From NCBI GenBank assembly GCA_037157565.1, contig JAZHRO010000012.1:5544501-5608500 (forward strand): a DNA stretch of 64,000 bases, read 5' to 3'. Under the pieces are notes generated by a model, which was not told the origin of the DNA, did no database searches, and worked only from the letters and a program-made list of their open reading frames with translations. Source of the DNA: Thalassia testudinum (lineage: Eukaryota; Streptophyta; Magnoliopsida; Alismatales; Hydrocharitaceae). This document shows positions 7,615 to 62,997 of this stretch, in pieces (positions within the stretch are counted from its first letter, which is position 1; each line of letters starts with the position of its first letter). A program made the translations under genes and the position numbers.

Positions 7615-7638
7615 TCCCCCCTCTAGTGCAATTTCATT

Positions 7639-7652
7639 TGGTATCAGAGCAG
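7639..7652 (+). other. copia primer-binding site (initiator tRNA-Met)
   Basis: TGGTATCAGAGCAG, two bases after the LTR end at 7636. It matches the usual plant copia PBS complementary to the 3' end of initiator tRNA-Met. Confidence 0.9.
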
Positions 7653-17800: not shown

Positions 17801-20045
17801 ACGGGTCAAAAACGACGAATCTGTCCAAAATCAGACGTCTGGAACCTCTTCCAGACGTCTTAAAAGGTTGATCATGTCGTACCTCAGTCTGCGCAGTCCT
17901 TCGGCGTCCAGAAGCCCGCTGGATCGTCTAGCCTTAGTTTCCAGATGTCCGATTATCACCCCGGACGTCTGGAGGTCCTATCCGTCGTCTGGTACTGTGG
18001 CCAGACATCTGATTCGTGTGCAAAGGCGAGCCCTCGCGCCCTCCCGAACAACACCGGCGCACACACGCATCCGCTCTCACCACGAAAAGGCGCAGAAGAA
18101 CGCGGCGTACGGCTGCATGGCCGTACCCGCATAAAAAGGAAGGAAAATATTGTACCTGTCAGACGTCTGGGTCTTCCTCCAGATGTCTTCTGCGTCGTCT
18201 GGATGAAGGTCCAGACGTCCGATTCTAGGAAATTTTCCCGGAATCAGGACCCTATCGCTCTCCGCCCGCGACGCACGGCCTCGCCACGCCCGCCTGCTGC
18301 CCGAGCTGCAGCAGCTCCTCCGTGACACCCTACGCCCGCTACTCCCCCACCGGCTGGCTCTAGCTACCCCGGCAAGCTCACACCTCGCGGTTGAGCTTTC
18401 TTCTTCCTCCCACGACACTCCTCCCTCCCACACGCTCGCTGCAACAGCTGCTGCTGCACCTGCTCGCTCGCTCGCGCTGGCAGAGAGAAGGGGAAGGTGA
18501 AGGCGATGGAGTGAGGGTGAGGGAGAGGGCGGTGCTATATAAAGGCAGCGCGGGGAGAGAGAAAAGAGAAGCGGCGCGTCTGCAGGGAGGGAGAGAGAGA
18601 GCAGAACGAAGGCGGCGAGTTCAGTCTACGCGCGCAGACGCGAACCCGTACGCCGAAAAAATTTAATACCAGACGTCTGGGAAGGGTTCCAGACGTCTGG
18701 GCCACTTCCCAGACATCTTAACTGCGTCAGATGCTGTGTTCGTAACATCGCCGATAACCCCCTCTTGGGCATCTTCGTCTCCAGCTCCGGTAGGCATGAG
18801 CCGGACGCCTCCCTCTCCCCCTTCGTCGACTAAGTAGGTAGGAATCTTCCTCTCTCTCTCTCTCCCTTATATTTTCCCCTTCCTGATTTACATTTTAACC
18901 CACCGACCGCCACTTCCACTCTCATCTGCTCCATCTCCGGTCGCCATCTCCGACGAGGTCACTCCACCTCCACAGACCACCTCACCCCTCGTTGACAAGC
19001 CCAGAAGCTCCCCCTCACTCCACTTAACCATTTCCCCCACTCCATTCACTGCCATTCACCGCTTGACCACCCCCCCGAACAAACCCACTTCCGCACACAC
19101 AGTCTGACCTAGGCACACGGCCACAGGCGCCCCCACGCCTTGCCGACCCTCGCACCGCCTTCGCTGCCCTCTAGTGAAGCTCCCTACGTTATCTGATGTT
19201 GCCGAGAGGCTATCCTTGTGATTTCAGGTCTTCACATCCTCGCCGCCATTGACGAGCTGCTGAAGCTCCTTTGCAAGTAGCTCCAGGACGCCTCCAGCCC
19301 AGGTGTGAGTTCCAGGCAGCGCGGGTTGAGTTCGCTAGCATGCCCAAGTTTGCGACTAGGGTCGCAAACATTTGCTGCTGCCCCAATTAGCAGCTCCTCA
19401 CCTGCAGGCACGCAGATTGGAGGTGGGACTTTAGTCCCACCTCGTAAGTGTGTGGCCTCGCACCCACACTTAAATTGCAAAAGCGAATAGGGTTGTTTGC
19501 GTTCGATACACAGGGGTCAGGTCCCTCACCCGCACGCAGCGCGCCACGCGCTCGCCTGCCCTCGCCCGCGCTTACACCCCGTGGGTCTGGGCCGAATCCG
19601 ACTACCGGACCAAGCACTCCTCTCCCACCACCGCACGCCGGTGGGCCTGGTCCTAGGCGCGCAACCCGAACCCGATTACCCGGCTCTGGGAGAGCATTCC
19701 TAAAGAGAGATTCAGAGAGAAAGAGAGACGCGGGGAAGGGGTAGGGGTAGGTTTTGCACTGATAGTTGTCTGTGCGCGCAGGGAAGAAGGAAAAAGAAAG
19801 AAGAAGAAGAAGAAGAAGAAAAGCGAAGAGGAAGAGAGAAGAAGAAGAAGCCAACAAAACTTTTGCTCTCTCTCTCTTATTATTTGTGTAACATAATTGT
19901 GAACCTCTATGCTTCTAGGATTATAGTTGCTCCCTGAGTTCGACCTCGGGAATCTTGTTCCGAGTAAAAAGAAATTGTATTAAACTGGTAACTATTTTAT
20001 CATATACTGCAATGAATATAAATAAAGACAGAAAACACGCGACCA
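14896..20045 (+). mobile_element. Solo LTR, Athila-like family A, itself split by a family-B solo LTR
   Basis: TGATGAGAACCTCATCATGA...GCGACCA with a perfect target duplication CTAGG (14891-14895 and 20046-20050). The first 100 bp match the 45541/52859/60176 LTRs. It has a TATA-like CTATTTAAGG near 15825, the GAGGTGGGACT/AGTCCCACCTC hairpin at 19420-19443, the U5 box CTCCCTGAGTTCGACCTCGG near 19931, and a degenerate antisense tRNA-Asp match at 20003-20013. Without the nested insertion it is about 2.44 kb. A GAA-repeat tract lies at 19799-19820. Confidence 0.88.
16046..18747 (-). mobile_element. Solo LTR, chromovirus family B, nested in a family-A LTR
   Basis: TGTAACGACC...TTCGTAACA, 2702 bp, flanked by a perfect duplication TCGCC (16041-16045 and 18748-18752). 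It is the reverse complement of the 805-3471 LTR type. Phased motifs lie at 17833/17853; 17943/17963/17983/18003; 18161/18181/18193/18213; and 18671/18691/18711. A minus-strand TATA (TATATAG) lies at 18536-18541, 130 bp from the last group. Confidence 0.92.
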
Positions 20046-28639: not shown

Positions 28640-29721
28640 TGATAACACCACGCAAGGGGGTAGTAATTAGGTTGAATATGGCCCATCTTTAGAATAAAAG
28701 GCACAACATAAAGTAGAATAGGAGCATTACATGCATCAAGTACCAAGATTGCTTATAAACTGTATTAATGGCCATTTGTGTAAAGCATTTGTCAAAGCAG
28801 GCCTCAGATGAGCAATCGGACCGCACGGATGGATTCAGGACGACGAACGGAGTCTAACAGACTCAAGATCGGCCAAATCCGACATCCGGAGCTCCCACAA
28901 TGGGCCCAAGAAATCCTGACCGTTGATCTGGAGATCAACGGCCTAGAACGTGCGCACGCGCGCCCGAAGCGCGATCCTAGCGCAGGCGCGGGAGGATCTC
29001 AGCCGTCCGATCATCAATCGGACGGCTCTCGTTCGACATCCACGGATCGCGCCTGAAGAGAGAGAGGGGCGGGCGGCTGACCGGCGGCAGAAGGCCTTCA
29101 CCGACGTATCTGGAAGCGGTTTTAGCGACGTTCTGGATGTCGCTAAAGCACATTCTTCTTTTAGGAAGCCCTTAACTCTATTTAAACCCCCTTCTACCAC
29201 CATTCAAGGCATCCTCTCCCACTTGCAACTACTCCACTCCTCTCCTAGCTAGTCTTAGGCACTCTTGTAATCGCCGGAGACGACGAGCCGCCGACGGAGC
29301 CTCCTCCACCGCCGTGGCTGCCTCGTCGCTCTCCACTCTCTCTCTACCTCTCTCTCTCTCTCTTTTAAGCTTTCATTTACTTTTGTTGAAGCATGTATTT
29401 AATATTGTAAACCATGAACTATGAATGCATGTTTAATGAAATTATTTTCCATTTAGTTGCCATTTTAATTTCTATTTAAAGTGCATGATCAAAACCAAGA
29501 GCTTTCTAACCCTAAACTCTCTCTATCTCTCACTTTTCAAAACCGTCTCTTTCGCAAGCAAAACTCCGCCTTTTTCGTGACAACAAGTGGTAAACAAAAT
29601 CCAATTTCCACGCCTCCCTGAGATCGACACTCGGACTCACCTCCGTTTACTTCTTTTAAAACCGACGTATCAAGTGCAACTATAACGACACCTCTTAACA
29701 CACACGCACGAAGGCACGTCA
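28640..29721 (+). mobile_element. Solo LTR of the Athila-like host family, inside the CACTA element
   Basis: TGATAACACC...GGCACGTCA, 1082 bp, with a perfect duplication ATGAG (28635-28639 and 29722-29726). It aligns with the 5' LTR at 37406-38992, for example in CCTCAGATGAGCAATC and ATGGCCAT. It has TATTTAAA near 29177, the TTTAGCGACGT/ATGTCGCTAAA hairpin at 29121-29147, the U5 box CCTCCCTGAGATCGACACTC near 29611, and a partial antisense tRNA-Asp match at 29681-29689. Confidence 0.9.
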
Positions 29722-37405: not shown

Positions 37406-38992
37406 TGATAACTCTGGATTCGATGATGATAATTCCATCAACAAGGGATCATCTTGAGGATATATGTGCACTAATAACATACCATAATGGGCATGGGAGC
37501 ACTACATGCATTGCGAATTAAGATTGATTGTAAATCAATATTTAATGGCCATGTGTACAAGTTCATGTTGAAACAAGCCTCAGATGAGCAATCAGACCAC
37601 ACGGATGGGCTCAGAACGACGAACAAAGTCCAATGGACTCAAAATCGCTTAAATCCGACATCTGGAGCTCCCTCAACCAGCCCAAAAATTTCTGGGCGTT
37701 GATCTGATGATCAACGACCCATAAGCGGCCACATGGTGCCATCCGCCGCATCCTCACCAACACGGCAACCACGCTCGTCACGAAGGAGCGCTTTAAGCTA
37801 TCCGATCCAAGGATCGAACAGCTGAGGAGCCACGATCTCGTGCCCAGCACCGCGTCCGCCATCGCACCTTCAAATCTTGACCGTTGGATCTCCATCCAAC
37901 GGTCAACACTGGCCGCCACTTGACTTCACTCCGCAACAACTGCGAAGATGGCGCAGTGGGTAGCGCCTCAGCCTCACAAGCAGCGACGAGTGTTCGAAGC
38001 TCCATGCGTTGCCAAATCACGCTTGATCGAAAGCGTGGTCGATTACAACCATCGATGCGGGCACGAACGGTATAGATGGAGTCCATGCGGCACCTCCAGA
38101 TGAAAGCTCGCCCTGACGCACAAGATCACACGCGCTCACTCCATGCAAAGCGAGATCCGAGCACCTCCTCTCACGTGATCGTGACCGTTGAAGCGCAATC
38201 AAACGGTTGATGTGCGTCCATCACGCGAAGGCTTACACTCTTGTAGGTGCGAGGGGGCAACGTGGCGCACCCTCAGCTATCCGATGGCTATCTACGCCTC
38301 GGATCCGACGGCTGAGAACGCGCAGGTGCGGATTGAAGGAGGAAACACGCATGCCTCTAAGGACCAGTGGCCGAGGGGCTTCATCGACACTTCTAGAATG
38401 GGATTAGCGACGTCTTGGACGTCGCTAAAACCCTTACCTAGTTTGGAAACCCCTTCTCTATATAAACCTCCTCAACCACCCCATTCAAGGACATTCAATT
38501 CTCATTCACCCTCCATTCAATACTAGCCCTCTCCTAGCTCCACCAAACACTCCATATCCGCCCTTGGAGTTGTCGAGCTACCGACGGAGCCCCCTCCACT
38601 GCCGTGGCCGCCTCGCCTCCTCCTCGCACTCTCTTTTATCCTAGTTTTATGTTGCACCATTTTAAGCTTTCATCTATTGTTGTATTTGTAAACGATCTCT
38701 AATTGCATACTATATGTAGATGTTGCTTCTTATATCATAGTTCACATCTCCTTAAGTGATTATCATGTTTTAAACGCAAGCTCTAACCCTACTCTCTCTC
38801 TCTCTCTCTCTCTCATTTTTGCAAGCAAACCATGCTACCATTTTGTGACACCTAAAGCGACTAAAACTAATCTAATTTCACGTCTCCCTGAGATCAACAC
38901 TTGGACTCACAAATCCATATCTTAATTTAAAATCGACAACTCGAGCGCATGCTACAATAATATAATTAAACCAACGTGTTCCGCGTGCGTCA
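37406..38992 (+). repeat. 5' LTR of the Athila-like host element
   Basis: TGATAACTCTGG...GTGCGTCA, 1587 bp, sharing most blocks with the solo LTR at 28640-29721. Start chosen by alignment to that LTR's TGATAACACC. It contains the perfect hairpin TTAGCGACGTC/GACGTCGCTAA (38404-38428), CTATATAAAC near 38458 as TATA box, a long CT repeat at about 38790-38814, the U5 box near 38883, and antisense tRNA-Asp similarity at 38952. Confidence 0.8.
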
Positions 38993-38995: not shown

Positions 38996-39016
38996 GTTAG
39001 CGCTGTTGCCAGGGAG
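38996..39016 (+). other. Degenerate tRNA-Asp primer-binding site
   Basis: TTAGCGCTGTTGCCAGGGAG, four bases after the LTR. Compared with the intact TGGCGCCGTTGCCGGGGA at 48366 it differs at three or four positions. Confidence 0.75.
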
Positions 39017-45540: not shown

Positions 45541-48363
45541 TGATGAGAACCACATCATGAGCCATAACTAGCTCATTTTGACCCAATACAAAGGATAAAA
45601 GCTCCTACATAACTCAAGGAAAGGCTTAACTCAGAGAATTCTGAGTTTAAGGAGAAAACAAGTCATAAGGGGTAAAAATGCAATTTTACCAGTATAATCT
45701 GCATACAGGGTAATTCAGGGTCCAAACATAGGTCAAAGCAACTTAATAAGAATAAAAGTGGGATGAGATGATCTAGCAAGGGCTACAGCAATTCCAAGGA
45801 ACTAAATGATAATCTGTAACCCTAAAACAACCCACTTCAATTCACGAGGTTCGAGGCAAAGTAAAAATAGAATAAACCCTCTAAAATTCATAGAAAAATA
45901 ATCTCTAGGGTTTAGAACCTTCAATTTGGCCTTCAGAACCCATGTTGACCTACATTGAGAACCATGCCCAATTAATAACTTAATCTGGGTTTTCGCATAA
46001 ATTGACCGGTCAAACAAGGTTTAATATAGAAATAAAATTTACCATCAGATTCCTTAGGTCCCAATTAATCATGTATAAAAACTTGAGCCTTAGAAGAAAC
46101 CTCCTTGACCGACTTTACACTTTGGTCCTCATATATTTACTTTTTGGCCCTCAACTTTTGAACCGTCGCATTTTAACCCCTAACTCTCCTTCATTCTTTG
46201 CATTCAGGTCCCCCCTGCAAAATCGGCCAGCACCATGCTCCGGCAACCTTGCGCGGAGCATGGCGCCGCGCAGGGTGAGGGGAAAAGCCTGGCAAGTAAA
46301 CCAGGGGTGCCCTGCGTTGTCAGCCGTCGCAGGGACACCCCCCTGGTCGCTGTAGCCCACCATACCGGCCGTGCGAACGCACGGACGGTATGGGCTTTCG
46401 TCTCCGGCCATCCTCCGGCGAGGGAGACACGTCGTCTCCCTCCGCCTCCCTCCCTGTTTTGATCCCTATAAATACCCCCGTCGCTCCACCGTTCTTCCCA
46501 GCTCCGATCTGACGGAGAAAATCCCCAACTTTCCTCTCTTCTCTCTCCGGCAGACGCTCACCAGCTCCGGCGGTTCCTCCCCCTCCTCCTCTTCGCTCTG
46601 CCGCAATACCAGCAGCAGAGACTTCCTCCCCTGCTCTTCCCGCACCACGCCGTACCCAGCTGGCGCCTCTCCGGCTCTCTGCTCGCCGCCGCCCCTTTCC
46701 CTGAGCATCATCTTCTCCGGCGACAGTCGATACGACTGTCGCCCTGTTCCTCCCCCTTCGTCCCTGCAAGTAAGTTAGAACTACTTCCCTTCTTCTCCTC
46801 TTTCTTTCCCCGCTTTCAATTTATTCAATTAAGCCCTCGACCGACCCTGACCATCGTCACCCCCTTCGTCTCCGGCCACACTCCGGCGAGATGCTCCCAT
46901 CTCTCCACAGCCTCACACACTTCGCCGACCTTCACCGAACCTCCGCCTCATCACACTGAGCACCCCCCACCCCTTCACTGCCACTCCACACCTCCGTAAC
47001 GCTTCCCCCAACAAACCCATCCTCCGACCCACAGTCCGACCTAGGGCAGCCCTTGCACGTCGCCCCACGCCTCGCCACCACCCACACGAGCTTTGCCGCA
47101 CCCTGGCGAAGCTCCCGGCACTTTCTGATTAGGCCGAGAGGCCGTTTTCTTGTGAACAGGCCACCCGACCTCCGCCGCCATTGCCGTGCAGAAGGAGCTG
47201 CTTCCGTCTGCAGCTACAGGCGCGCCACGCTCAGCGCCACGCCCAGATTCGACTCCCAGGCCTTGCGAGGCGTTTCGACAAAACACCAGGCGCGCAGCTA
47301 AGGCAGAAGGCTTCGCGTGACGCCACGATCTCCCGCTGCTTTCCCCGCTGCGGGCGCGCAATTGAGGTGGGACATTTAGTCCCACCTCGGAAAAGTCTGA
47401 AGAGGCGCAGCGATATAAGACGCAAAAGTGCTGGAGGCTTACTGCCTCAGCACACGGGGTGAGGTCCCCTTCACCCGCCCGGTTACCCGGTCTCGTCCGC
47501 GCTCACGCCCCGCGGACCTGACCCGACCCGACTTAGACTGACCTGCACTCCTCGCCCACCACGCACGCCGGTGGGCCTGGACCCGGGCGTGACCCGAACC
47601 CGATTACCCGGCAGCTCTGGGAGAGCTTTCCCAAGAGTGGTTTCAGAGAGAGAGAGACGCGGGGGGGAGAGGGTAGAGTAGGTTTTGTTCTCTGACGTAA
47701 GCTCTGAAGTGCGCAGGCACAGGTGAAGAAGAAGAACCGCGGAAGAAGAAGGAAGCTGAGGGAGACACAGTAGCAACAGGCAGTTTAAGTCGTCTGATTT
47801 GGAAATCAGACGACGGCCTGAAGGGAAAAGAAGAAAGAAGGAGGGGCGACGTCCCTGACTGAAGAACATCAGAAGAAGGCGAGGCAGAGGAGAACACAAA
47901 AGAACAAGGGAAGATCTGAAAGAAGAAAAACAAAGAAGAAAGAAGAAGATCTGAAGAAAGACAGAAGAAAAAGGAAGAGCAGGAACAGCTGGAACAAGAA
48001 AGAAGAGCATCACCTCTGCAGAACAAACAAGAAGAAGATCACCTTTGCAGAACAAAGAAGAAAGAAGGAGATCTGAAGAAAGAAAGAAAGAAGAACATCA
48101 CCTCTGCAGACAAAGAAGAAGAAGATCTAAGACGAGGAGAAAACAAAGAGAAAAGAAGACAACAAATTCTTTCCCTCTCTCTTTCTTTTTGTAAAAGAAA
48201 CATGTATATCTCTAGAATACAACTTGCTCCCTGAGTTCGACCTCGGGAACTCTTTTATTTTCCGAGTAAAAAAATTATATTTGAAATGTTGGCAATAACT
48301 GGCTATACTACAACGCTATAACAATAAAACCCGGTTATCTCTCGAAGCCAACGTATCCAATCA
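45541..48363 (+). repeat. LTR 1 of the tandem array
   Basis: TGATGAGAACCACATC...GTATCCAATCA. TATAAATA at 46467; perfect 11-bp hairpin GGCGACAGTCG/CGACTGTCGCC at 46719-46743; splice donor GTAAGT at 46770; hairpin GAGGTGGGAC/GTCCCACCTC at 47364-47388; quasi-palindrome GTCGTCTGATTT/AAATCAGACGAC at 47789-47814; purine-rich AAGAAG tract 47720-48165; U5 box CTCCCTGAGTTCGACCTCGG at 48231; antisense tRNA-Asp CTATACTACAACG at 48303-48315. About 25 differences from LTR2 lie in its first 1.6 kb. Confidence 0.95.
46467..46474 (+). promoter_or_regulatory. TATA box of tandem LTR 1
   Basis: TATAAATA in GATCCCTATAAATACCCC, repeated at 53784 and 61101 in LTRs 2 and 3. Followed by a CT-rich leader, as in plant Pol II promoters. 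Confidence 0.75.
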
Positions 48364-48365
48364 TT

Positions 48366-48383
48366 TGGCGCCGTTGCCGGGGA
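48366..48383 (+). other. tRNA-Asp primer-binding site, internal region 1
   Basis: TGGCGCCGTTGCCGGGGA, two bases after LTR1, complementary to the 18 3'-terminal bases of plant tRNA-Asp(GTC). It is repeated at the start of internal region 2 (about 55683). Confidence 0.92.
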
Positions 48384-49470
48384 GCAACGGCTATTCTAGA
48401 GGTAAACATTCCTGTTTCTTTTTAATTTCTGATAATCTCCTCTCTTTTGTGCAGCTACAGGAACTCAAGAAGACAAGCAACCACACGACAACCACTCCGA
48501 GGACAGGTAAATTTTTCCTCTCGCTATTAACCCCTAAGCTCTAAAGAGGAAGAAAAGAAAAGAACAAGCAATATAGGGTTAACCTGTCTTCCATACTTAG
48601 TAACCATAAAGAGTTGCATGTTTTCAACTCATCACTCCTGCACACTATTAAGGGTATTTAAGGGCTAACACATTCTTGCTTGAGCCCTAATTACCCAACA
48701 AAGAGTTAAATGGACCAAGTAGAGCCAACATAAGGTCAAACATTAGGATTTCAGTAGAGACACACCCCTTAATCAAGAATTGAGGAAATCCAAAAGAGGT
48801 GTGCCCAAGCCATTGATTGAAAATAATTAATAAGAAAAATCCTAAACAATTGGCTCTCTCTAAACACTTGAACCCTAAAACAAGGCCTAACTTCTCAAGG
48901 AAACCACTAGGTGAAGTTGACCCCTGGGGTCAACCAACCTTCAAACTAGGCCACTTTGTTCACAAAAACACCTAAAGTTCAAGTGAAACCTTAAGCACCC
49001 TGATCTTAAAATTGGTAGACTTAAGAGGTCAAGATCCCCATTCTGGTCTACCTGGAACCGCAGTGACAAGAGAGGTCGGGTGGGGGAAACCCTGTAACCC
49101 GTGGGGACGCTCTACCGTGTAGGGGTCTTCGCGGGACTCTCCCTCTCTGGCTGCCCAGGTAATTCTCAGGTGGACGATCTTTCTGATCAAGGGGTCCATC
49201 TGCCCCGAACCTCTATAGTCACCCAACAATTTTTGGGTGTCTTGATTGGGTCCAGCACCTGCTTATCTCATCCAGCCCTTCAGTATTTTTCAGGAGGTCC
49301 TTGAAACCTCCTATAGAAATTCACTCTCCCCAAGGCTAAGCCTCGGCTCCTTTGTTTTTGCAGAAATCATTCACATAGCCCCTTTTTCCTCTGATTCTGA
49401 ACAAAATCCCCTTCTTCCATCTTGATTCAAACTTTGGTTCTATATCTTGATTCCACCACCTGATCCAATT
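48384..49470 (+). other. Leader of internal region 1 with splice signals
   Basis: No ORF of note. A 52-bp mini-exon is bounded by an acceptor (TTTTGTGCAG, ends 48454) and a donor (ACAG|GTAAAT, 48507). A second acceptor (GTTTTTGCAG) ends at 49363, 107 bp before the ORF's ATG. With the LTR donor at 46770 this would give a spliced leader for the ORF (inferred). Confidence 0.55.
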
Positions 49471-51342
49471 ATGCAGCCTAATTACCTAGCAAGACTACCA
49501 TTCAAAAAACCTGAATATCTGAGATCCATGAAAGATAAGATGATTGAGGATGCCCTTGAAATCTATGAAATCAAATATAAACCCTCAACACCAGTAGAAA
49601 ACATTCAGGTTGATGTCCCAACAACCACAGCTTTCATCATAAACTGTGCCCAAATTCTATTGACTGAAATTTCAAAAGGATCAACCCGAGATATGCTCAT
49701 GACAGGATACATTGAGATGGAAAAATTACACCAATCTGAATACCTTCAATGCTTGACAAATCCTGTACTTTGGGAACAACACCAAGATGCCCTTATGAAA
49801 CGGGTAGAAATGATGAAATCAGTAGAACAAATTATCAACCAGAAATACCCGTATATACTAGAAACAGAGGATGAACCATCTTGGAACAATATTAAGGAAC
49901 AATCCAGTTTCCCAGATCTCGGGATTGAGGCACAAAGTGGTTGTAAAATCCCAACCCAGATAGAAGACAATGTTGAATTAGGTTGGGATATTGCAGGAGA
50001 ACACAATGATGAGCCAAACTTAGACCATGAATTGCCAAGCCTAGAATTTCAAAACTCCTGCAATAATGAGATCAGAACTGAACCTTCTGAGGGTATAAAT
50101 TCCGCCCCTTATTTTGATAAGGTGGCCCTCGAAGATTATTCGGACTTAGGTTCTAATAATTCTACCCACATCCTAAGTCTAGAACCTAGATCTGAAACTT
50201 ATTGGGAAGATTATGAGGCCCCTTATGAGAAAGATCAAATTTTTACAAAATATGATTCCGGGCCTTTATTTGATGAATATCCCTCTCCAACATCTTCAGA
50301 AAATCTGATCGATTTTCCAGAGAACATGCCAATTTATGATACAGAGACTGAGGAGTTGGATGAGTTGGATTTTAATTGGGTCTATCCTACCAGCTTGGAG
50401 CTTGAGCCTAGACAGAATACCTTTTCAAGCCCAGAATTGACATATAGGCTAGACCCCAATCAGGCTGCTGATTCCACATTTGATGATTTTTGCTGTGGTG
50501 GAATTCATGATCATGAATCTCATTTTCGCCAACTCTCCGACAATTTCAAATCTGACTATAATTGCGGAGAGATTCCCCTTCCTGAACACGCCAGGCCTAT
50601 CTACGACCCCAGTTCTCATGACTCTAACTCCGACTCTGAGGTCCTGATTCCCGAGATCACTAATAACACAGAATCATTCCTTTTCGATCCTCAGGAACCA
50701 AAAATAGAAAATGCCAAGAGTGATTACAACCAAGAATCCAAATTTTTTCTCGAATCCGATTCCTTTCATCCTACAGACACTCTTCCGGCATTTGATAGTT
50801 ACCCAGAGGACTCTCTACAGAAAACCACCTATCATCTGTTTCTAGAAGAGCCCTCGTACACAATGGCCACCTCGTCCGCACACACAGAACGGATCAAAAC
50901 CTCTCCCAAACCCCGACCCGCAACCGGACTCAATTTCTATTCAGATTCACCTCTCACCGAGCCGATTGCATTTCCACATCGGGTTTCGAACATTGATCAG
51001 ACTACATACCATGCTCTATCATTCTCTGATCACCCCTGTAGGGTTTCCGCGTCATTCATTGATTATTCTACGGGTCCCTACTCTGACCAGGCTGATTCGA
51101 CTCAGCCAAACCCTGCGTTTACACTTCCACATCCATCTGAGCTTCATAGTTTATGGTGGGTTCCACACCTTTTTATCCACATCTATCAACCCACCAGATT
51201 GATTGGGTTTGGGCTGCATCATCAGCCTGTTGATCTGAACAAGCACCTGGTTGGACCAACCAGGCTCTTAATCAAGGTGCTTGTCTTACAAAACTTTGCT
51301 GATTTGACCATCCCCTCTCCATCGCATTTCCCGCTTGGCTGA
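49471..51342 (+). CDS. Unrecognised 623-codon protein of the non-autonomous element, copy 1
   Basis: The first ATG is at 49471; the open frame begins slightly earlier at 49447 with non-ATG codons. The N-terminal ~130 residues look helical (DKMIEDALEIYEIKYKPSTP; TRDMLMTGYIEMEKLHQSEY). The middle 350 residues are acidic, rich in Asp, Glu, Ser, Pro and Tyr, and likely disordered. The C-terminal 80 residues are more hydrophobic (HLFIHIYQPTRLIGFGLHHQ). I see no zinc knuckle, protease, RT, integrase or clear membrane helix, so I assign no function. The translation is identical in copy 2. A role as a gag-like or RNA-binding factor is only a guess. Confidence 0.7.
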   Translation: MQPNYLARLPFKKPEYLRSMKDKMIEDALEIYEIKYKPSTPVENIQVDVPTTTAFIINCAQILLTEISKGSTRDMLMTGYIEMEKLHQSEYLQCLTNPVLWEQHQDALMKRVEMMKSVEQIINQKYPYILETEDEPSWNNIKEQSSFPDLGIEAQSGCKIPTQIEDNVELGWDIAGEHNDEPNLDHELPSLEFQNSCNNEIRTEPSEGINSAPYFDKVALEDYSDLGSNNSTHILSLEPRSETYWEDYEAPYEKDQIFTKYDSGPLFDEYPSPTSSENLIDFPENMPIYDTETEELDELDFNWVYPTSLELEPRQNTFSSPELTYRLDPNQAADSTFDDFCCGGIHDHESHFRQLSDNFKSDYNCGEIPLPEHARPIYDPSSHDSNSDSEVLIPEITNNTESFLFDPQEPKIENAKSDYNQESKFFLESDSFHPTDTLPAFDSYPEDSLQKTTYHLFLEEPSYTMATSSAHTERIKTSPKPRPATGLNFYSDSPLTEPIAFPHRVSNIDQTTYHALSFSDHPCRVSASFIDYSTGPYSDQADSTQPNPAFTLPHPSELHSLWWVPHLFIHIYQPTRLIGFGLHHQPVDLNKHLVGPTRLLIKVLVLQNFADLTIPSPSHFPLG

Positions 51343-52858
51343 AGGCATCAAATTTAGTGCTCAACGGGAGGCAGCCCGTCATTCTCTTTGAAAACCTGAA
51401 ACTTGTTCTGACAGCTTTTTGCACTTGAAGTTCACACTTTAGGACAGCCGACTCCACCTCAGGTGCTTGCATCTGAGATTCATCAAAACATCTATCCTAA
51501 TGTATGAACTTAGTTGAATAAAAACCCCTAGGTTACAATGAGGACATTGCAAATCTTAGGCATGGGGGGTAGGAAAGTACAAAAACTTGTAAGAAAAGGT
51601 TTCAAACAAAAAAATTCACATATGACAAAAACACCATAAAAATTAAAAAAAAAAAAATTTTTTTTTCGAAAAAGAATAAGAGGAAAAGAGGAGAAGGAAA
51701 TTTTGTGAAGGAGAAAAGAAACAAAATGAAAAAGGAGCACAAAAATTATGAGAAAAGGTGATAGTCATTAGTAAGGAACTAAGGAATTAACCTAAGTTCT
51801 AGACCTCATTCAAGAAAATAACTGAAAAGTGCATAATGAGATTAGTAAGAACGCAAACCTTAGGCATTCTTGAATAGACTCTTAGCACCCATTAAGATCT
51901 GGACACTCCTCAAAAGGTTGAGGAAAATGAAAAGCTGAAGTATTAGGTCTAAGGCTTAGGGAGTATTTGGCCTCGTTAACTAATTTTTGGTTTACGGGAC
52001 TCAGTAACCTAAGCACCCTAACCTCACACACAGCCTGGTTCAGTAAGCGTAAAAATCAGAATCACGCAGAAGCGTCGCAAAATTCTGAAAAGAACACCTA
52101 GAATAGGAGCGGCCGATCAACACAAGTTGATTTGGACGAGTTCTCAGCGCGGAGAGGCGGGAAATCCCCTCGAAGATGCGTAACAAAATATCATCTCCTC
52201 GGTGCTTGTTTCTTAGGATATTTACATATCCTACTGGGGGCATGTAAGCACTCTGCTGGTTCAGATTCCATGGATGGCATTATCTCGAAGTGTCAATTGC
52301 CAGGGTCTGAATTCGGCCACGGAACACCATGGATGGGATTATCTCGAAATCTCAATAGCCAGGGTTCCGGGGGTTACCATGGGCGGTGCTATCTCGAAGC
52401 ATCGATCGCCAGGAACCCTTGAGGATTGATGATGGGAGCAAGGAATCTGATACAGACCGTGTTGAAAAGCCAATCCTAGGCTAGAACTAAAAAGAAAAAG
52501 AGAGAGAAAACTCTCCAAACAGAAAAAACTTTCTATCTCTCTCTTACAAACGCACTGCGAACTGAGCCAGGGCTAAAATCATTTCAAGCACGGGTGCTTT
52601 AACCACAAAGTCCAATAAACCTTAGGTTAGTTCTTGTGGACCTTAAAAACCTTTGCTAGAGACTGAGGCTAAGGCTAGACAGATTTGGATCTTGATTGGT
52701 ACTAGAGTACCTTTTAGGCCTATGGTCAGCATTCTAACCTAATCTAAGCTCAAATAAAAAAGCACTTATCTAAAGCTATTAAGAACTTCATGGTCTAGAA
52801 CAAGGGTTGAAACCTTAAGTTTTTGCTAAGGGACTAGCAAAAGCTAGGCATGGGGGTA
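51343..52858 (+). other. 3' non-coding part of internal region 1
   Basis: In order: hairpin ACGGG-AGGCAG-CCCGT at 51364-51379; the Athila/Tat-type box CAATGAGGACATTG then TTAGGCATGGGGGG (51536-51569); an A13T9-type run near 51645; three diverged repeats of about 37 bp starting at 52268, 52327 and 52377; and the PPT GGCATGGGGGTA at 52848-52858 abutting LTR2. No ORF is credible. Confidence 0.7.
52268..52413 (+). repeat. Three imperfect direct repeats (CCATGGATGG...TCTCGAA...GCCAGG)
   Basis: Units start at 52268, 52327 and 52377 (spacing 59 and 50). Each has CCATGG, TATCTCGAA and GCCAGG in the same order. Repeated in internal region 2 at 59585, 59644 and 59694. Confidence 0.8.
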
Positions 52859-55680
52859 TGATGAGAACCTCATCATGAGCCATAACTAGCTCATTTTGAC
52901 CCAATACAAAGGATAAAAGCTCCTACATAACTCAAGGAAAGGCTTCACTCAGAGAATTCTGAGTTTAAGGAGAAAACAAGTCATAAGGGGTAAAAATGCA
53001 ATTTTACCAGTATAATCTGCATACAGGGTAATTCAGGGTCCAAACAAAGGTCAAAGCAACTTAATAAGAATAAAAGTGGGATGAGATGATCTAGCAAGGG
53101 CTACAGCAATTCCAAGGAACTAAATGATAATCTGTAACCCTAAAACAACCTACTTCAATTCACGAGGTTAGAGGCAAAGTAAAAATAGAATAAACCCTCT
53201 AAAATTCATAGAAAAATAATCTCTAGGGTTTAGAACCTTCAATTTGGCCTTCAGAACCCATGTTGACCTACATTGAGAACCATGCCCAATTAATAACTTA
53301 ATCTGGGTTTTCGCATAAATTGACCGGTCAAACAAGGTTTAATATAGAAATAAAATTCACCATCAGATTCCTTAGGTCCCAATTAATCATGTATAAAAAC
53401 TTGAGCCTAAGAAGAAACCTCCTTGACCGACTTTACACTTTGGTCCTCATATATTTACTTTTTGGCTCTCAACTTTTGAACCGTCGCATTTTAGCCCCTA
53501 ACTCTCCTTCGTTCTTTGCATTCAGGTCCCCCCTGCAAAACCGGCCAGCACCATGCTCCGGCGACCTTGCGCGGAGCATGGCGCCGCGCAGGGTGAGGGG
53601 GAAAGCCTGGCAAGTAAACCAGGGGTGCCCTGCGTTGTCAGCCGTCGCAGGGACACCCCCTGGTCGCTGTAGCCCACCATACCGGCCGTGCGAACGCACG
53701 GACGGTATGGGCTTTCGTCTCCGGCCATCCTCCGGCAAGGGAGACACGTCGTCTCCCTCCGCCTCCCTCCCTGTTTTGATCCCTATAAATACCCCCGTCG
53801 CTCCACCGTTCTTCCCAGCTCGGATCTGACGGAGAAAATCCCCAACTTTCCTCTCTTCTCTCTCCGGCAGACGCTCACCAGCTCCGGCGGTTCCTCCCCC
53901 TCCTCCTCTTCGCTCTGCCGCAATACCAGCAGCAGAGACTTCCTCCCCTACTCTTCCCGCGCCACGCCGTACCCAGCTGGCGCCTCTCCGGCTCTCTGCT
54001 CGCTGCCGCCCCTTTCCCTGAGCATCGTCTTCTCCGGCGACAGTCGATACGACTGTCGCCCTGTTCCTCCCCCTTCGTCCCTGCAAGTAAGTTAGAACTA
54101 CTTCCCTTCTTCTCCTCTTTCTTTCCCCGCTTTCAATTTATTCAATTAAGCCCTCGACCGACCCTGACCATCGTCACCCCCTTCGTCTCCGGCCACCCTC
54201 CGGCGAGATGCTCCCATCGCTCCACAGCCTCACACACCTCGCCGACCTTCACCGAACCTCCGCCTCATCACACTGAGCACCCCCCACCCCTTCACTGCCA
54301 CTCCACACCTCCGTAACGCTTCCCCCAACAAACCCATCCTCCGACCCACAGTCCGACCTAGGGCAGCCCTTGCACGCCGCCCCACGCCTCGCCACCACCC
54401 ACACGAGCTTCGCCGCACCCTGGCGAAGCTCCCGGCACTTTCTGATTAGGCCGAGAGGTCGTTTTCTTGTGAACAGGCCACCCGACCTCCGCCGCCATTG
54501 CCGTGCAGAAGGAGCTGCTTCCGTCTGCAGCTACAGGCGCGCCACGCTCAGCGCCACGCCCAGATTCGACTCCCAGGCCTTGCGAGGCGTTTCGACAAAA
54601 CACCAGGCGCGCAGCTAAGGCAGAAGGCTTCGCGTGACGCCACGATCTCCCGCTGCTTTCCCCGCTGCGGGCGCGCAATTGAGGTGGGACATTTAGTCCC
54701 ACCTCGGAAAAGTCTGAAGAGGCGCAGCGATATAAGACGCAAAAGTGCTGGAGGCTTACTGCCTCAGCACACGGGGTGAGGTCCCCTTCACCCGCCCGGT
54801 TACCCGGTCTCGTCCGCGCTCACGCCCCGCGGACCTGACCCGACCCGACTTAGACTGACCTGCACTCCTCGCCCACCACGCACGCCGGTGGGCCTGGACC
54901 CGGGCGTGACCCGAACCCGATTACCCGGCAGCTCTGGGAGAGCTTTCCCAAGAGTGGTTTCAGAGAGAGAGAGACGCGGGGGGGAGAGGGTAGAGTAGGT
55001 TTTGTTCTCTGACGTAAGCTCTGAAGTGCGCAGGCACAGGTGAAGAAGAAGAACCGCGGAAGAAGAAGGAAGCTGAGGGAGACACAGTAGCAACAGGCAG
55101 TTTAAGTCGTCTGATTTGGAAATCAGACGACGGCCTGAAGGGAAAAGAAGAAAGAAGGAGGGGCGACGTCCCTGACTGAAGAACATCAGAAGAAGGCGAG
55201 GCAGAGGAGAACACAAAAGAACAAGGGAAGATCTGAAAGAAGAAAAACAAAGAAGAAAGAAGAAGATCTGAAGAAAGACAGAAGAAAAAGGAAGAGCAGG
55301 AACAGCTGGAACAAGAAAGAAGAGCATCACCTCTGCAGAACAAACAAGAAGAAGATCACCTTTGCAGAACAAAGAAGAAAGAAGGAGATCTGAAGAAAGA
55401 AAGAAAGAAGAACATCACCTCTGCAGACAAAGAAGAAGAAGATCTAAGACGAGGAGAAAACAAAGAGAAAAGAAGACAACAAATTCTTTCCCTCTCTCTT
55501 TCTTTTTGTAAAAGAAACATGTATATCTCTAGAATACAACTTGCTCCCTGAGTTCGACCTCGGGAACTCTTTTATTTTCCGAGTAAAAAAATTATATTTG
55601 AAATGTTGGCAATAACTGGCTATACTACAACGCTATAACAATAAAACCCGGTTATCTCTCGAAGCCAACGTATCCAATCA
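52859..55680 (+). repeat. LTR 2 (middle, recombinant) of the tandem array
   Basis: At about 25 diagnostic sites up to 54459 it matches LTR3 and not LTR1. From about 55195 on it matches LTR1 at all four or five remaining sites. It is therefore a 3'-LTR/5'-LTR hybrid with the switch between about 54460 and 55195. It carries the same motifs as LTR1: TATA at 53784, hairpins at 54036-54060 and 54681-54705, GTCGTCT pair near 55105. Confidence 0.93.
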
Positions 55681-58600
55681 TTTGGCGCCGTTGCCGGGGA
55701 GCAACGGCTATTCTAGAGGTAAACATTCCTGTTTCTTTTTAATTTCTGATAATCTCCTCTCTTTTGTGCAGCTACAGGAACTCAAGAAGACAAGCAACCA
55801 CACGACAACCACTCCGAGGACAGGTAAATTTTTCCTCTCGCTATTAACCCCTAAGCTCTAAAGAGGAAGAAAAGAAAAGAACAAGCAATATAGGGCTAAC
55901 CTGTCTTCCATACTTAGTAACCATAAAGAGTTGCATGTTTTCAACTCATCACTCCTGCACACTATTAAGGGTATTTAAGGGCTAACACATTCTTGCTTGA
56001 GCCCTAATTACCCAACAAAGAGTTAAATGGACCAAGTAGAGCCAACATAAGGTCAAACATTAGGATTTCAGTAGAGACACACCCCTTAATCAAGAATTGA
56101 GGAAATCCAAAAGAGGTGTGCCCAAGCCATTGATTGAAAATAATTAATAAGAAAAATCCTAAACAATTGGCTCTCTCTAAACACTTGAACCCTAAAACAA
56201 GGCCTAACTTCTCAAGGAAACCACTAGGTGAAGTTGACCCCTGGGGTCAACCAACCTTCAAACTAGGCCACTTTGTTCACAAAAACACCTAAAGTTCAAG
56301 TGAAACCTTAAGCACCCTGATCTTAAAATTGGTAGACTTAAGAGGTCAAGATCCCCATTCTGGTCTACCTGGAACCGCAGTGACAAGAGAGGTCGGGTGG
56401 GGGAAACCCTGTAACCCGTGGGGACGCTCTACCGTGTAGGGGTCTTCGCGGGACTCTCCCTCTCTGGCTGCCCAGGTAATTCTCAGGTGGACGATCTTTC
56501 TGATCAAGGGGTCCATCTGCCCCGAACCTCTATAGTCACCCAACAATTTTTGGGTGTCTTGATTGGGTCCAGCACCTGCTTATCTCATCCAGCCCTTCAG
56601 TATTTTTCAGGAGGTCCTTGAAACCTCCTATAGAAATTCACTCTCCCCAAGGCTAAGCCTCGGCTCCTTTGTTTTTGCAGAAATCATTCACATAGCCCCT
56701 TTTTCCTCTGATTCTGAACAAAATCCCCTTCTTCCATCTTGATTCAAACTTTGGTTCTATATCTTGATTCCACCACCTGATCCAATTATGCAGCCTAATT
56801 ACCTAGCAAGACTACCATTCAAAAAACCTGAATATCTGAGATCCATGAAAGATAAGATGATTGAGGATGCCCTTGAAATCTATGAAATCAAATATAAACC
56901 CTCAACACCAGTAGAAAACATTCAGGTTGATGTCCCAACAACCACAGCTTTCATCATAAACTGTGCCCAAATTCTATTGACTGAAATTTCAAAAGGATCA
57001 ACCCGAGATATGCTCATGACAGGATACATTGAGATGGAAAAATTACACCAATCTGAATACCTTCAATGCTTGACAAATCCTGTACTTTGGGAACAACACC
57101 AAGATGCCCTTATGAAACGGGTAGAAATGATGAAATCAGTAGAACAAATTATCAACCAGAAATACCCGTATATACTAGAAACAGAGGATGAACCATCTTG
57201 GAACAATATTAAGGAACAATCCAGTTTCCCAGATCTCGGGATTGAGGCACAAAGTGGTTGTAAAATCCCAACCCAGATAGAAGACAATGTTGAATTAGGT
57301 TGGGATATTGCAGGAGAACACAATGATGAGCCAAACTTAGACCATGAATTGCCAAGCCTAGAATTTCAAAACTCCTGCAATAATGAGATCAGAACTGAAC
57401 CTTCTGAGGGTATAAATTCCGCCCCTTATTTTGATAAGGTGGCCCTCGAAGATTATTCGGACTTAGGTTCTAATAATTCTACCCACATCCTAAGTCTAGA
57501 ACCTAGATCTGAAACTTATTGGGAAGATTATGAGGCCCCTTATGAGAAAGATCAAATTTTTACAAAATATGATTCCGGGCCTTTATTTGATGAATATCCC
57601 TCTCCAACATCTTCAGAAAATCTGATCGATTTTCCAGAGAACATGCCAATTTATGATACAGAGACTGAGGAGTTGGATGAGTTGGATTTTAATTGGGTCT
57701 ATCCTACCAGCTTGGAGCTTGAGCCTAGACAGAATACCTTTTCAAGCCCAGAATTGACATATAGGCTAGACCCCAATCAGGCTGCTGATTCCACATTTGA
57801 TGATTTTTGCTGTGGTGGAATTCATGATCATGAATCTCATTTTCGCCAACTCTCCGACAATTTCAAATCTGACTATAATTGCGGAGAGATTCCCCTTCCT
57901 GAACACGCCAGGCCTATCTACGACCCCAGTTCTCATGACTCTAACTCCGACTCTGAGGTCCTGATTCCCGAGATCACTAATAACACAGAATCATTCCTTT
58001 TCGATCCTCAGGAACCAAAAATAGAAAATGCCAAGAGTGATTACAACCAAGAATCCAAATTTTTTCTCGAATCCGATTCCTTTCATCCTACAGACACTCT
58101 TCCGGCATTTGATAGTTACCCAGAGGACTCTCTACAGAAAACCACCTATCATCTGTTTCTAGAAGAGCCCTCGTACACAATGGCCACCTCGTCCGCACAC
58201 ACAGAACGGATCAAAACCTCTCCCAAACCCCGACCCGCAACCGGACTCAATTTCTATTCAGATTCACCTCTCACCGAGCCGATTGCATTTCCACATCGGG
58301 TTTCGAACATTGATCAGACTACATACCATGCTCTATCATTCTCTGATCACCCCTGTAGGGTTTCCGCGTCATTCATTGATTATTCTACGGGTCCCTACTC
58401 TGACCAGGCTGATTCGACTCAGCCAAACCCTGCGTTTACACTTCCACATCCATCTGAGCTTCATAGTTTATGGTGGGTTCCACACCTTTTTATCCACATC
58501 TATCAACCCACCAGATTGATTGGGTTTGGGCTGCATCATCAGCCTGTTGATCTGAACAAGCACCTGGTTGGACCAACCAGGCTCTTAATCAAGGTGCTTG

Positions 58601-60175
58601 TCTTACAAAACTTTGCTGATTTGACCATCCCCTCTCCATCGCATTTCCCGCTTGGCTGAAGGCATCAAATTTAGTGCTCAACGGGAGGCAGCCCGTCATT
58701 CTCTTTGAAAACCTGAAACTTGTTCTGACAGCTTTTTGCACTTGAAGTTCACACTTTAGGACAGCCGACTCCACCTCAGGTGCTTGCATCTGAGATTCAT
58801 CAAAACATCTATCCTAATGTATGAACTTAGTTGAATAAAAACCCCTAGGTTACAATGAGGACATTGCAAATCTTAGGCATGGGGGGTAGGAAAGTACAAA
58901 AACTTGTAAGAAAAGGTTTCAAACAAAAAAATTCACATATGACAAAAACACCATAAAAATTAAAAAAAAAAAAATTTTTTTTTCGAAAAAGAATAAGAGG
59001 AAAAGAGGAGAAGGAAATTTTGTGAAGGAGAAAAGAAACAAAATGAAAAAGGAGCACAAAAATTATGAGAAAAGGTGATAGTCATTAGTAAGGAACTAAG
59101 GAATTAACCTAAGTTCTAGACCTCATTCAAGAAAATAACTGAAAAGTGCATAATGAGATTAGTAAGAACGCAAACCTTAGGCATTCTTGAATAGACTCTT
59201 AGCACCCATTAAGATCTGGACACTCCTCAAAAGGTTGAGGAAAATGAAAAGCTGAAGTATTAGGTCTAAGGCTTAGGGAGTATTTGGCCTCGTTAACTAA
59301 TTTTTGGTTTACGGGACTCAGTAACCTAAGCACCCTAACCTCACACACAGCCTGGTTCAGTAAGCGTAAAAATCAGAATCACGCAGAAGCGTCGCAAAAT
59401 TCTGAAAAGAACACCTAGAATAGGAGCGGCCGATCAACACAAGTTGATTTGGACGAGTTCTCAGCGCGGAGAGGCGGGAAATCCCCTCGAAGATGCGTAA
59501 CAAAATATCATCTCCTCGGTGCTTGTTTCTTAGGATATTTACATATCCTACTGGGGGCATGTAAGCACTCTGCTGGTTCAGATTCCATGGATGGCATTAT
59601 CTCGAAGTGTCAATTGCCAGGGTCTGAATTCGGCCACGGAACACCATGGATGGGATTATCTCGAAATCTCAATAGCCAGGGTTCCGGGGGTTACCATGGG
59701 CGGTGCTATCTCGAAGCATCGATCGCCAGGAACCCTTGAGGATTGATGATGGGAGCAAGGAATCTGATACAGACCGTGTTGAAAAGCCAATCCTAGGCTA
59801 GAACTAAAAAGAAAAAGAGAGAGAAAACTCTCCAAACAGAAAAAACTTTCTATCTCTCTCTTACAAACGCACTGCGAACTGAGCCAGGGCTAAAATCATT
59901 TCAAGCACGGGTGCTTTAACCACAAAGTCCAATAAACCTTAGGTTAGTTCTTGTGGACCTTAAAAACCTTTGCTAGAGACTGAGGCTAAGGCTAGACAGA
60001 TTTGGATCTTGATTGGTACTAGAGTACCTTTTAGGCCTATGGTCAGCATTCTAACCTAATCTAAGCTCAAATAAAAAAGCACTTATCTAAAGCTATTAAG
60101 AACTTCATGGTCTAGAACAAGGGTTGAAACCTTAAGTTTTTGCTAAGGGACTAGCAAAAGCTAGGCATGGGGGTA
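55681..60175 (+). other. Internal region 2 of the tandem array
   Basis: Same length and layout as internal region 1. By eye I found one clear difference (T to C near 55894, in ATATAGGG-C-TAACC). It holds the PBS, leader splice signals, ORF, 3' boxes and PPT. Confidence 0.9.
56788..58659 (+). CDS. Unrecognised 623-codon protein of the non-autonomous element, copy 2
   Basis: Identical translation to the copy at 49471-51342, with its first ATG at 56788. Because the duplication is recent, identity between the copies is not evidence of selection. A comparison with independent insertions elsewhere in the genome would be needed to show the frame is maintained. Confidence 0.7.
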   Translation: MQPNYLARLPFKKPEYLRSMKDKMIEDALEIYEIKYKPSTPVENIQVDVPTTTAFIINCAQILLTEISKGSTRDMLMTGYIEMEKLHQSEYLQCLTNPVLWEQHQDALMKRVEMMKSVEQIINQKYPYILETEDEPSWNNIKEQSSFPDLGIEAQSGCKIPTQIEDNVELGWDIAGEHNDEPNLDHELPSLEFQNSCNNEIRTEPSEGINSAPYFDKVALEDYSDLGSNNSTHILSLEPRSETYWEDYEAPYEKDQIFTKYDSGPLFDEYPSPTSSENLIDFPENMPIYDTETEELDELDFNWVYPTSLELEPRQNTFSSPELTYRLDPNQAADSTFDDFCCGGIHDHESHFRQLSDNFKSDYNCGEIPLPEHARPIYDPSSHDSNSDSEVLIPEITNNTESFLFDPQEPKIENAKSDYNQESKFFLESDSFHPTDTLPAFDSYPEDSLQKTTYHLFLEEPSYTMATSSAHTERIKTSPKPRPATGLNFYSDSPLTEPIAFPHRVSNIDQTTYHALSFSDHPCRVSASFIDYSTGPYSDQADSTQPNPAFTLPHPSELHSLWWVPHLFIHIYQPTRLIGFGLHHQPVDLNKHLVGPTRLLIKVLVLQNFADLTIPSPSHFPLG

Positions 60176-62997
60176 TGATGAGAACCTCATCATGAGCCAT
60201 AACTAGCTCATTTTGACCCAATACAAAGGATAAAAGCTCCTACATAACTCAAGGAAAGGCTTCACTCAGAGAATTCTGAGTTTAAGGAGAAAACAAGTCA
60301 TAAGGGGTAAAAATGCAATTTTACCAGTATAATCTGCATACAGGGTAATTCAGGGTCCAAACAAAGGTCAAAGCAACTTAATAAGAATAAAAGTGGGATG
60401 AGATGATCTAGCAAGGGCTACAGCAATTCCAAGGAACTAAATGATAATCTGTAACCCTAAAACAACCTACTTCAATTCACGAGGTTAGAGGCAAAGTAAA
60501 AATAGAATAAACCCTCTAAAATTCATAGAAAAATAATCTCTAGGGTTTAGAACCTTCAATTTGGCCTTCAGAACCCATGTTGACCTACATTGAGAACCAT
60601 GCCCAATTAATAACTTAATCTGGGTTTTCGCATAAATTGACCGGTCAAACAAGGTTTAATATAGAAATAAAATTCACCATCAGATTCCTTAGGTCCCAAT
60701 TAATCATGTATAAAAACTTGAGCCTAAGAAGAAACCTCCTTGACCGACTTTACACTTTGGTCCTCATATATTTACTTTTTGGCTCTCAACTTTTGAACCG
60801 TCGCATTTTAGCCCCTAACTCTCCTTCGTTCTTTGCATTCAGGTCCCCCCTGCAAAACCGGCCAGCACCATGCTCCGGCGACCTTGCGCGGAGCATGGCG
60901 CCGCGCAGGGTGAGGGGGAAAGCCTGGCAAGTAAACCAGGGGTGCCCTGCGTTGTCAGCCGTCGCAGGGACACCCCCTGGTCGCTGTAGCCCACCATACC
61001 GGCCGTGCGAACGCACGGACGGTATGGGCTTTCGTCTCCGGCCATCCTCCGGCAAGGGAGACACGTCGTCTCCCTCCGCCTCCCTCCCTGTTTTGATCCC
61101 TATAAATACCCCCGTCGCTCCACCGTTCTTCCCAGCTCGGATCTGACGGAGAAAATCCCCAACTTTCCTCTCTTCTCTCTCCGGCAGACGCTCACCAGCT
61201 CCGGCGGTTCCTCCCCCTCCTCCTCTTCGCTCTGCCGCAATACCAGCAGCAGAGACTTCCTCCCCTACTCTTCCCGCGCCACGCCGTACCCAGCTGGCGC
61301 CTCTCCGGCTCTCTGCTCGCTGCCGCCCCTTTCCCTGAGCATCGTCTTCTCCGGCGACAGTCGATACGACTGTCGCCCTGTTCCTCCCCCTTCGTCCCTG
61401 CAAGTAAGTTAGAACTACTTCCCTTCTTCTCCTCTTTCTTTCCCCGCTTTCAATTTATTCAATTAAGCCCTCGACCGACCCTGACCATCGTCACCCCCTT
61501 CGTCTCCGGCCACCCTCCGGCGAGATGCTCCCATCGCTCCACAGCCTCACACACCTCGCCGACCTTCACCGAACCTCCGCCTCATCACACTGAGCACCCC
61601 CCACCCCTTCACTGCCACTCCACACCTCCGTAACGCTTCCCCCAACAAACCCATCCTCCGACCCACAGTCCGACCTAGGGCAGCCCTTGCACGCCGCCCC
61701 ACGCCTCGCCACCACCCACACGAGCTTCGCCGCACCCTGGCGAAGCTCCCGGCACTTTCTGATTAGGCCGAGAGGTCGTTTTCTTGTGAACAGGCCACCC
61801 GACCTCCGCCGCCATTGCCGTGCAGAAGGAGCTGCTTCCGTCTGCAGCTACAGGCGCGCCACGCTCAGCGCCACGCCCAGATTCGACTCCCAGGCCTTGC
61901 GAGGCGTTTCGACAAAACACCAGGCGCGCAGCTAAGGCAGAAGGCTTCGCGTGACGCCACGATCTCCCGCTGCTTTCCCCGCTGCGGGCGCGCAATTGAG
62001 GTGGGACATTTAGTCCCACCTCGGAAAAGTCTGAAGAGGCGCAGCGATATAAGACGCAAAAGTGCTGGAGGCTTACTGCCTCAGCACACGGGGTGAGGTC
62101 CCCTTCACCCGCCCGGTTACCCGGTCTCGTCCGCGCTCACGCCCCGCGGACCTGACCCGACCCGACTTAGACTGACCTGCACTCCTCGCCCACCACGCAC
62201 GCCGGTGGGCCTGGACCCGGGCGTGACCCGAACCCGATTACCCGGCAGCTCTGGGAGAGCTTTCCCAAGAGTGGTTTCAGAGAGAGAGAGACGCGGGGGG
62301 GAGAGGGTAGAGTAGGTTTTGTTCTCTGACGTAAGCTCTGAAGTGCGCAGGCACAGGTGAAGAAGAAGAACCGCGGAAGAAGAAGGAAGCTGAGGGAGAC
62401 ACAGTAGCAACAGGCAGTTTAAGTCGTCTGATTTGGAAATCAGACGACGGCCTGAAGGGAAAAGAAGAAAGAAGGAGGGGCGACGTCCCTGACTGAAGAA
62501 CATCAGAAGAAGGCAAGGCAGAGGAGAACACAAAAGAACAAGGGAAGATCTGAAAGAAGAAAAACAAAGAAGAAAGAAGAAGATCTGAAGAAAGACAGGA
62601 GAAAAAGGAAGAGCAGGAACAGCTGGAACAAGAAAGAAGAGCATCACCTCTGCAGAACAAACAAGAAGAAGATCACCTCTGCAGAACAAAGAAGAAAGAA
62701 GGAGATCTGAAGAAAGAAAGAAAGAAGAACATCACCTCTGCAGACAAAGAAGAAGAAGATCTGTGACGAGGAGAAAACAAAGAGAAAAGAAGACAACAAA
62801 TTCTTTCCCTCTCTCTTTCTTTTTGTAAAAGAAACATGTATATCTCTAGAATACAACTTGCTCCCTGAGTTCGACCTCGGGAACTCTTTTATTTTCCGAG
62901 TAAAAAAATTATATTTGAAATGTTGGCAATAACTGGCTATACTACAACGCTATAACAATAAAACCCGGTTATCTCTCGAAGCCAACGTATCCAATCA
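60176..62997 (+). repeat. LTR 3 of the tandem array
   Basis: Ends CCAATCA at 62997, followed by the TTGAT duplication. Differs from LTR2 only in the last ~500 bp (for example GGCAAGGCAG for GGCGAGGCAG near 62512, CTGTGACG for CTAAGACG near 62761). TATA at 61101; hairpins at 61353-61377 and 61998-62022. Confidence 0.93.

Follow-up and report, generated by a model that had tools for sequence, protein, structure and literature searches.

The window, which is the whole stretch of 64,000 nucleotides that was analyzed, looks like plant DNA and is filled by nested LTR retrotransposons. The tandem element of family A (45541..62997, + strand) has the arrangement LTR-internal-LTR-internal-LTR, with a TTGAT duplication at both ends and LTRs at 45541-48363, 52859-55680 and 60176-62997 (+). 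It is inserted within the pol gene of element F, which is of the Ty3/gypsy type. In a Pfam domain scan, frames of element F matched RVT_1, RT_RNaseH, rve and Asp_protease_2, the last just above the cut-off. The PBS of this element (38998..39015, +), which lies 5 nt past the LTR, fits tRNA-Asp at 15 of 18 positions. Element F thus has both of the features by which we recognized Athila-type Ty3/gypsy elements, namely gypsy pol domains and a tRNA-Asp PBS. An earlier note on this DNA had called the LTRs Athila-like, a description that protein domains support for F and for none of the others. A Pfam scan of the family A frames of at least 150 amino acids found no gypsy pol domains. The sole internal frame of that size, of 638 amino acids (49426-51342 and 56743-58659), has no Pfam match and, at an E-value of 0.001, no relative among 5238 candidates. 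Family A therefore looks non-autonomous.

Four further LTRs have no PBS behind them and look like solo LTRs. These are B (about 4987-7615, with a flanking duplication of four of five letters, judged by eye), C (9108-11473, GGGGA at both ends), D (14896-20045, CTAGG at both ends) and E (28640-29721, ATGAG at both ends). Given that the search ranges were wide and that about one such flank match is expected by chance for each, the limits of C and E are likely rather than proven. A, B and D are related to one another, as are E and F, and the seven LTR ends compared below (these six families and one peanut element) are consequently not independent. LTR C has two 33-nt matches only, one to B and one to F. 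LTR B lies 23 nt before a copia tRNA-iMet PBS (7639), i.e., inside the copia LTR end (window positions 7616-7650). LTR D spans 5,150 bp, of which about 2 kb (16046-18016) recurs at 22688-24652 with 82% identity.

The 18-nt PBS of family A (48366..48383, +) is complementary to tRNA-Asp at all 18 positions, and a second perfect copy occurs at 55683. When the whole window was searched for 18-nt tRNA-Asp PBSs with up to three mismatches, only these two and that of element F (38998) were found. The earlier note had placed such a PBS beside all six LTR families; two of the six, A and F, show one in the window. Athila, Calypso and Diaspora elements carry an 18-nt tRNA-Asp PBS 5 bp past the LTR (PMC1142308). 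Element F shares this spacing, and the available text of that paper gives no contact beyond the PBS. According to a survey, tRNA-Asp primes 6% of plant LTR elements (PMC6317226). Directly after the PBS of family A is GCAACGGC (48384..48391, +), a copy of the 3′ acceptor strand of tRNA-Asp, which could close the PBS or pair with tRNA nt 1-8. The GCAACGG of this strand follows the PBS in both A (48384-48391) and F (39016-39022), and is absent in the peanut element Athena.

A complement of the tRNA-Asp 5′ strand at LTR ends

The end of the family A LTR contains CTATACTACAACG (48303-48315, +), the exact complement of nt 3-15 of plant tRNA-Asp. The earlier note had claimed such a 13-base match, and the 5′ sequence of the tRNA, GTCGTTGTAGTATAGTGG, is found in print, both as the primer tRNA-Asp_1F (PMC6521008) and under the name “miR6300” (PMC5335773). 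The matched bases comprise the 5′ side of the D-arm, as had been proposed, and also the 5′ acceptor strand (nt 3-7). Identical copies of the site occur at 55620-55632 and 62937-62949. The distances of 32-48 nt that had been given as upstream of the PBS in fact refer to the LTR end, and the 48303 site is 50 nt ahead of the perfect PBS. We also considered and rejected the possibility that the site belongs to a tRNA gene or to a known RNA family.

Counting forms with one mismatch, the window has five matches to this site, where 0.83 are expected, and none of 100 shuffles reached five. In both one-mismatch forms (5020-5032 and 9145-9157, each on the - strand), the mismatch corresponds to a G.U pair in the RNA. 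We also scanned every position on both strands, allowing G.U pairs. All 13 bases are paired at five sites of the window, every one of them an LTR end, and the six sites with the highest weighted scores are LTR ends as well. Outside LTR ends, too, there are sites in which 12 of the 13 bases pair, many of them as G.U.

The sites of families B (5020..5032, -) and C (9145..9157, -) both read CTATACTACGACG and form 13 of 13 pairs, one of them G.U; in C, the pairing extends to 15 pairs and reaches tRNA nt 17. Family D (20002..20014, +) forms 12 of 13 pairs, family E (29679..29689, +) 11 of 11 with tRNA nt 1-11, and family F (38949..38958, +) 10 of 10 with tRNA nt 4-13. The earlier note had listed these last three as weaker forms at 20003, 29681 and 38952. 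Pairing sites are indeed present there, but the scores of E and F are not significant on their own.

A further case comes from peanut. The non-autonomous element Athena (PMC5904367) was located by searching full texts for the PBS letters, and the letters of the site were not used in that search. The available text gives CTATACTTGCAACG 51 nt ahead of TGGCGCCGTTGCCGGGGA (PMC5904367), so that all 13 tRNA bases are paired, with one G.U pair and one bulged T. Full-text searches with shorter or variant PBS letters, judged by title, and with variant letters of the site found no plant-element paper besides that on Athena. The PBS letters occur in four stretches of viral contigs, none with LTR-like surroundings by eye. 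The reverse transcriptase of element F has no relative among the viral contigs or genome contigs searched, and the PBS followed by GCAACGG occurs zero times in the genome contigs.

The site keeps its place in all seven LTR ends. We searched the final 120 nt of every LTR for the highest-scoring gapless complement to nt 1-58 of tRNA-Asp, the bases left free by the PBS. In each of the six families and in Athena, the pairing begins within tRNA nt 1-4 and the distance to the LTR end is 26-48 nt; both conditions hold together in 4.5-6.8% of shuffles of each LTR end. In F, the highest-scoring segment covers tRNA 4-27 with a score of 22 and overlaps the site in another register; the score of the site proper is 20, at a distance of 34 nt. 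The claim that diverged LTRs keep the match at a similar place is thereby upheld for place, with F in a different register.

Regarding strength, the number of shuffles (out of 300) that reach the observed score is 0 for A, 0 for B, 1 for C, 5 for D, 18 for E, 60 for F and 122 for Athena. The shuffle check that the earlier note had suggested therefore favors the place of the match in all seven ends but not its score in E, F and Athena. Since the scores of these three are not significant against shuffles, they count by place and not by strength.

The matches might also have been picked out of several LTR ends by chance. The scores of E, F and Athena, taken singly, would agree with this, as would the LTR end of the iMet-primed copia element, our only control with another primer. 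That end scores 18 against tRNA-iMet and 21 against tRNA-Asp (at 49 nt from the end), close to the shuffle means of the other ends (18.5-19.8). However, chance selection would have to account for an exact 13-mer in A, for 13 pairs in both B and C and for a coherent place in seven of seven ends. It would also have to explain specificity. Over the seven LTR ends, the summed score for plant tRNA-Asp nt 1-19 is 190, about 8 standard deviations above that of 21 other tRNAs (mean 105.5, sd 10.0, next highest 128), these being 20 tRNAs of E. coli and a plant tRNA-iMet. We regard chance as a very improbable explanation.

At the level of single LTR ends, tRNA-Asp ranks first in five of seven, while one other tRNA surpasses it for D and one for Athena. 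Along tRNA-Asp itself, nt 3-15 is the best of 46 windows. The tRNA matched by the site is that of the PBS in the families in which a PBS is visible: a second complement to the PBS's own tRNA is present in family A and in peanut Athena, and is weaker in F. Overall, the LTR ends carry a complement of 10-15 nt to the first 17 bases of tRNA-Asp. A test by duplex energy over 30 nt was too loose and was discarded. In it, the number of shuffles (out of 1000) reaching the observed value was 0 for A, 2 for C, 3 for D, 11 for B, 17 for Athena, 191 for F and 210 for E. In the same order, 0, 0, 1, 1, 3, 11 and 4 of 20 E. coli tRNAs did at least as well.

Relative to A, all seven changes in the core (tRNA 4-13) of B, C, D, F and Athena lead to G.U or U.G pairs, in a comparison that omits E (because of its register) and the extra base of Athena, and in which B and C share one change. 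The four breaks in pairing in these sites are at tRNA positions 3, 14 and 15. This pattern may favor kept pairing, but it is suggestive only, given that transition bias alone would, by our estimate, leave about half of such changes harmless.

The earlier note had also suggested that the site could be targeted by 5′ fragments of tRNA-Asp. Through the same pairing, these fragments, which carry the annotation miR6300, might cut the element or silence it. A target of AGO proteins is expected to pair from nt 2 of the fragment through nt 13. The seven sites do not follow this rule: pairing begins at nt 3 in A, B and C and at nt 4 in F, covers nt 1-11 in E, and spans nt 2-14 in D, with G.U pairs, and nt 2-16 in Athena, with a bulge. 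Such fragments do appear in plant small-RNA papers (e.g., PMC5335773), and a 5′ fragment of tRNA-iMet was reported to target Athila6A, according to a review (PMC8215267). Nevertheless, the first two nt of the fragment have no partner in A, where the match is exact, nor in B and C, which weakens the proposal. Moreover, an element gains nothing from being a silencing target of its host, and conservation through G.U changes would be unexpected. We consider a role as a fragment target improbable.

Predicted hairpin around the site

In most families, the site is predicted to be the opening part of a stem-loop whose loop has about 28 nt. For family A, folding predicts an apical loop of 28 nt (48303..48330, +) with the site at its opening, a 5′ arm at 48278..48302 (+) and a 3′ arm, with unpaired stretches, at 48331..48362 (+). 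The predicted energy of this stem is -18.4, compared with a mean of -7.9 (sd 2.2) in shuffles. When the left and right flanks of each site were paired with each other, the stem closed at most 1 nt from the site in six of the seven ends (A, B, C, E, F and Athena). The predicted loops have 28 nt in each of A, B, C and E, 27 nt in F and 34 nt in Athena, while the stem sequences vary among families. Family D has no hairpin by this test.

With 35-nt flanks, and under topology limits that were fixed after the stems had been seen, 1.6-7.8% of shuffles have the hairpin topology, and for these six ends no more than 0.5% match both topology and energy. When the limits of the site were instead set automatically by the best segment, three of seven ends passed (A, C and E); B failed narrowly by its energy, Athena by its bulge, F by its other register and D outright. 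The p-values of stem energy with 35-nt flanks are 0.001 for A, 0.007 for Athena, 0.033 for E, 0.09 for C, 0.13 for F, 0.17 for B and 0.90 for D, and are significant alone in A, E and Athena only. Combined over LTRs that are not independent, they give 7.7e-5, or 0.001 with 45-nt and 0.0087 with 55-nt flanks. The hairpin of B is weak and is lost at a 45-nt flank. We rejected strand asymmetry of the stem as proof, because the stem of the opposite strand is equal or stronger in B and C.

Across the window, 17 sites score at least 25. Six of these have the hairpin, and all six are LTR ends (the three copies of A, as well as B, C and E). Among the 130 sites that score at least 19, the hairpin occurs in 13, seven of which are weaker matches away from LTR ends.

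Part of the site might have a partner within the element itself. Its CAACG could pair with CGTTG of the PBS and keep the PBS closed until the primer comes, and two complements of the acceptor strands are, by construction, complementary to each other. This pairing accounts for only 5 of the 13 bases, however, and nothing in the PBS would pair with the conserved CTATACTA part. In the fold predicted for A, too, CAACG and the PBS are not paired with each other. Such closure of the PBS strikes us as highly unlikely to be what the site is for. When family A was cofolded with the tRNA, tRNA nt 1-8 paired with GCAACGGC and the second contact was absent. Cofolding cannot model loop contacts, and it was rejected as proof of the second contact.

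The strongest competitor to pairing with the primer is a conserved motif in a U5 loop with some other role, such as packaging, protein binding or RNA processing, whose likeness to the tRNA would be accidental or due to descent. Both the motif and the loop show conservation in their own right, A, B and D are related, as are E and F, and the control with another primer consists of one copia end. All of this fits such a motif. It is less easily reconciled with the fact that the match fits the very tRNA of the PBS, with a summed score above those of the 21 other tRNAs, that every change in the core is of the G.U type and that Athena comes from a different plant. We judge this explanation possible but unlikely.

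Another conserved block, CTCCCTGAG(T/A)TCGAC..CGG, is situated about 66-76 nt ahead of the site and has seven matches where 0.17 are expected (48227-48246, 19930-19949, 5082-5101 on the - strand, 29614-29638 and 38884-38908, with copies at 55544 and 62861). Judged by eye, this block can fold into a hairpin and looks similar to the T arm of tRNA-Asp. A mimic of the tRNA-Asp T arm is described in brome mosaic virus RNA (PMC13191261).

A candidate second contact for the primer tRNA

The observation of the earlier note is confirmed, and its interpretation is partly supported. With moderate confidence, we propose that the primer tRNA-Asp makes a second, conserved contact at this site, comparable to a bipartite PBS or a primer activation signal. 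The 18 nt at the 3′ end of tRNA-Asp would anneal to the PBS, which would open both the acceptor stem and the T stem. Nt 3-7 of the 5′ acceptor strand, now free, would then anneal in the loop together with the adjoining nt 8-15, which include a strand of the D stem. The element RNA would hold both acceptor strands in this arrangement, so that the acceptor stem could not re-form. Given that the order on the RNA is second site, 39-51 nt, PBS, the 3′ end of the tRNA would face the template that is copied first. In this way, tRNA-Asp would be selected and would stay in position for the initial step of reverse transcription, and the enzyme would displace the second contact once some 40-50 nt had been copied.

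Related arrangements are known in other systems. In the yeast element Ty3, two sites bind the primer tRNA-iMet, the second of which is in U3 and contacts the D arm (PMC5371799), and the two halves of this bipartite PBS are at opposite ends of the RNA (PMC11381356). Ty3 resembles the plant case in being Ty3/gypsy and in gripping its primer tRNA twice, including the D arm, but the plant site lies within the LTR end at 39-51 nt ahead of the PBS and matches tRNA-Asp. The yeast element Ty1 has short complements to arms of its primer tRNA-iMet, including the DHU arm (PMC4974528). As in plants, these are near the PBS, but they lie 3′ of it, whereas the plant site lies 5′. The primer activation signal of HIV-1, like the plant site, is upstream of the PBS, but its partner is the T arm of tRNA-Lys3 (PMC13191261) rather than the 5′ strand of the tRNA. 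Two-site priming itself is already known, and the plant case would unite the upstream place with a partner in the 5′ strand of the tRNA. Among the matches listed by our searches, which were mostly outside the subscription literature, titles and the starts of abstracts revealed no earlier report of such a contact in plants.

More tentatively, Asp-primed plant LTR elements in general might share a docking hairpin in U5. The 5′ half of its loop of about 28 nt would read tRNA nt 3-15 and the other half would bridge the helix, and together with the PBS the hairpin would strip the tRNA of both acceptor strands. Each lineage would have rewritten the stem while keeping the loop size and the match to the tRNA, and non-autonomous elements would retain the hairpin for access to the primer.

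The choice of primer in plant elements is currently read from the PBS that adjoins the LTR. A second conserved contact would go some way toward explaining the selection and retention of tRNA-Asp. If the proposal is true, plant elements join the two-site priming of yeast and HIV, and the site becomes a mark that ties non-autonomous elements to their Asp-primed partners. It also predicts that lineages that switched their primer switched the second site too, which can be tested in existing genomes.
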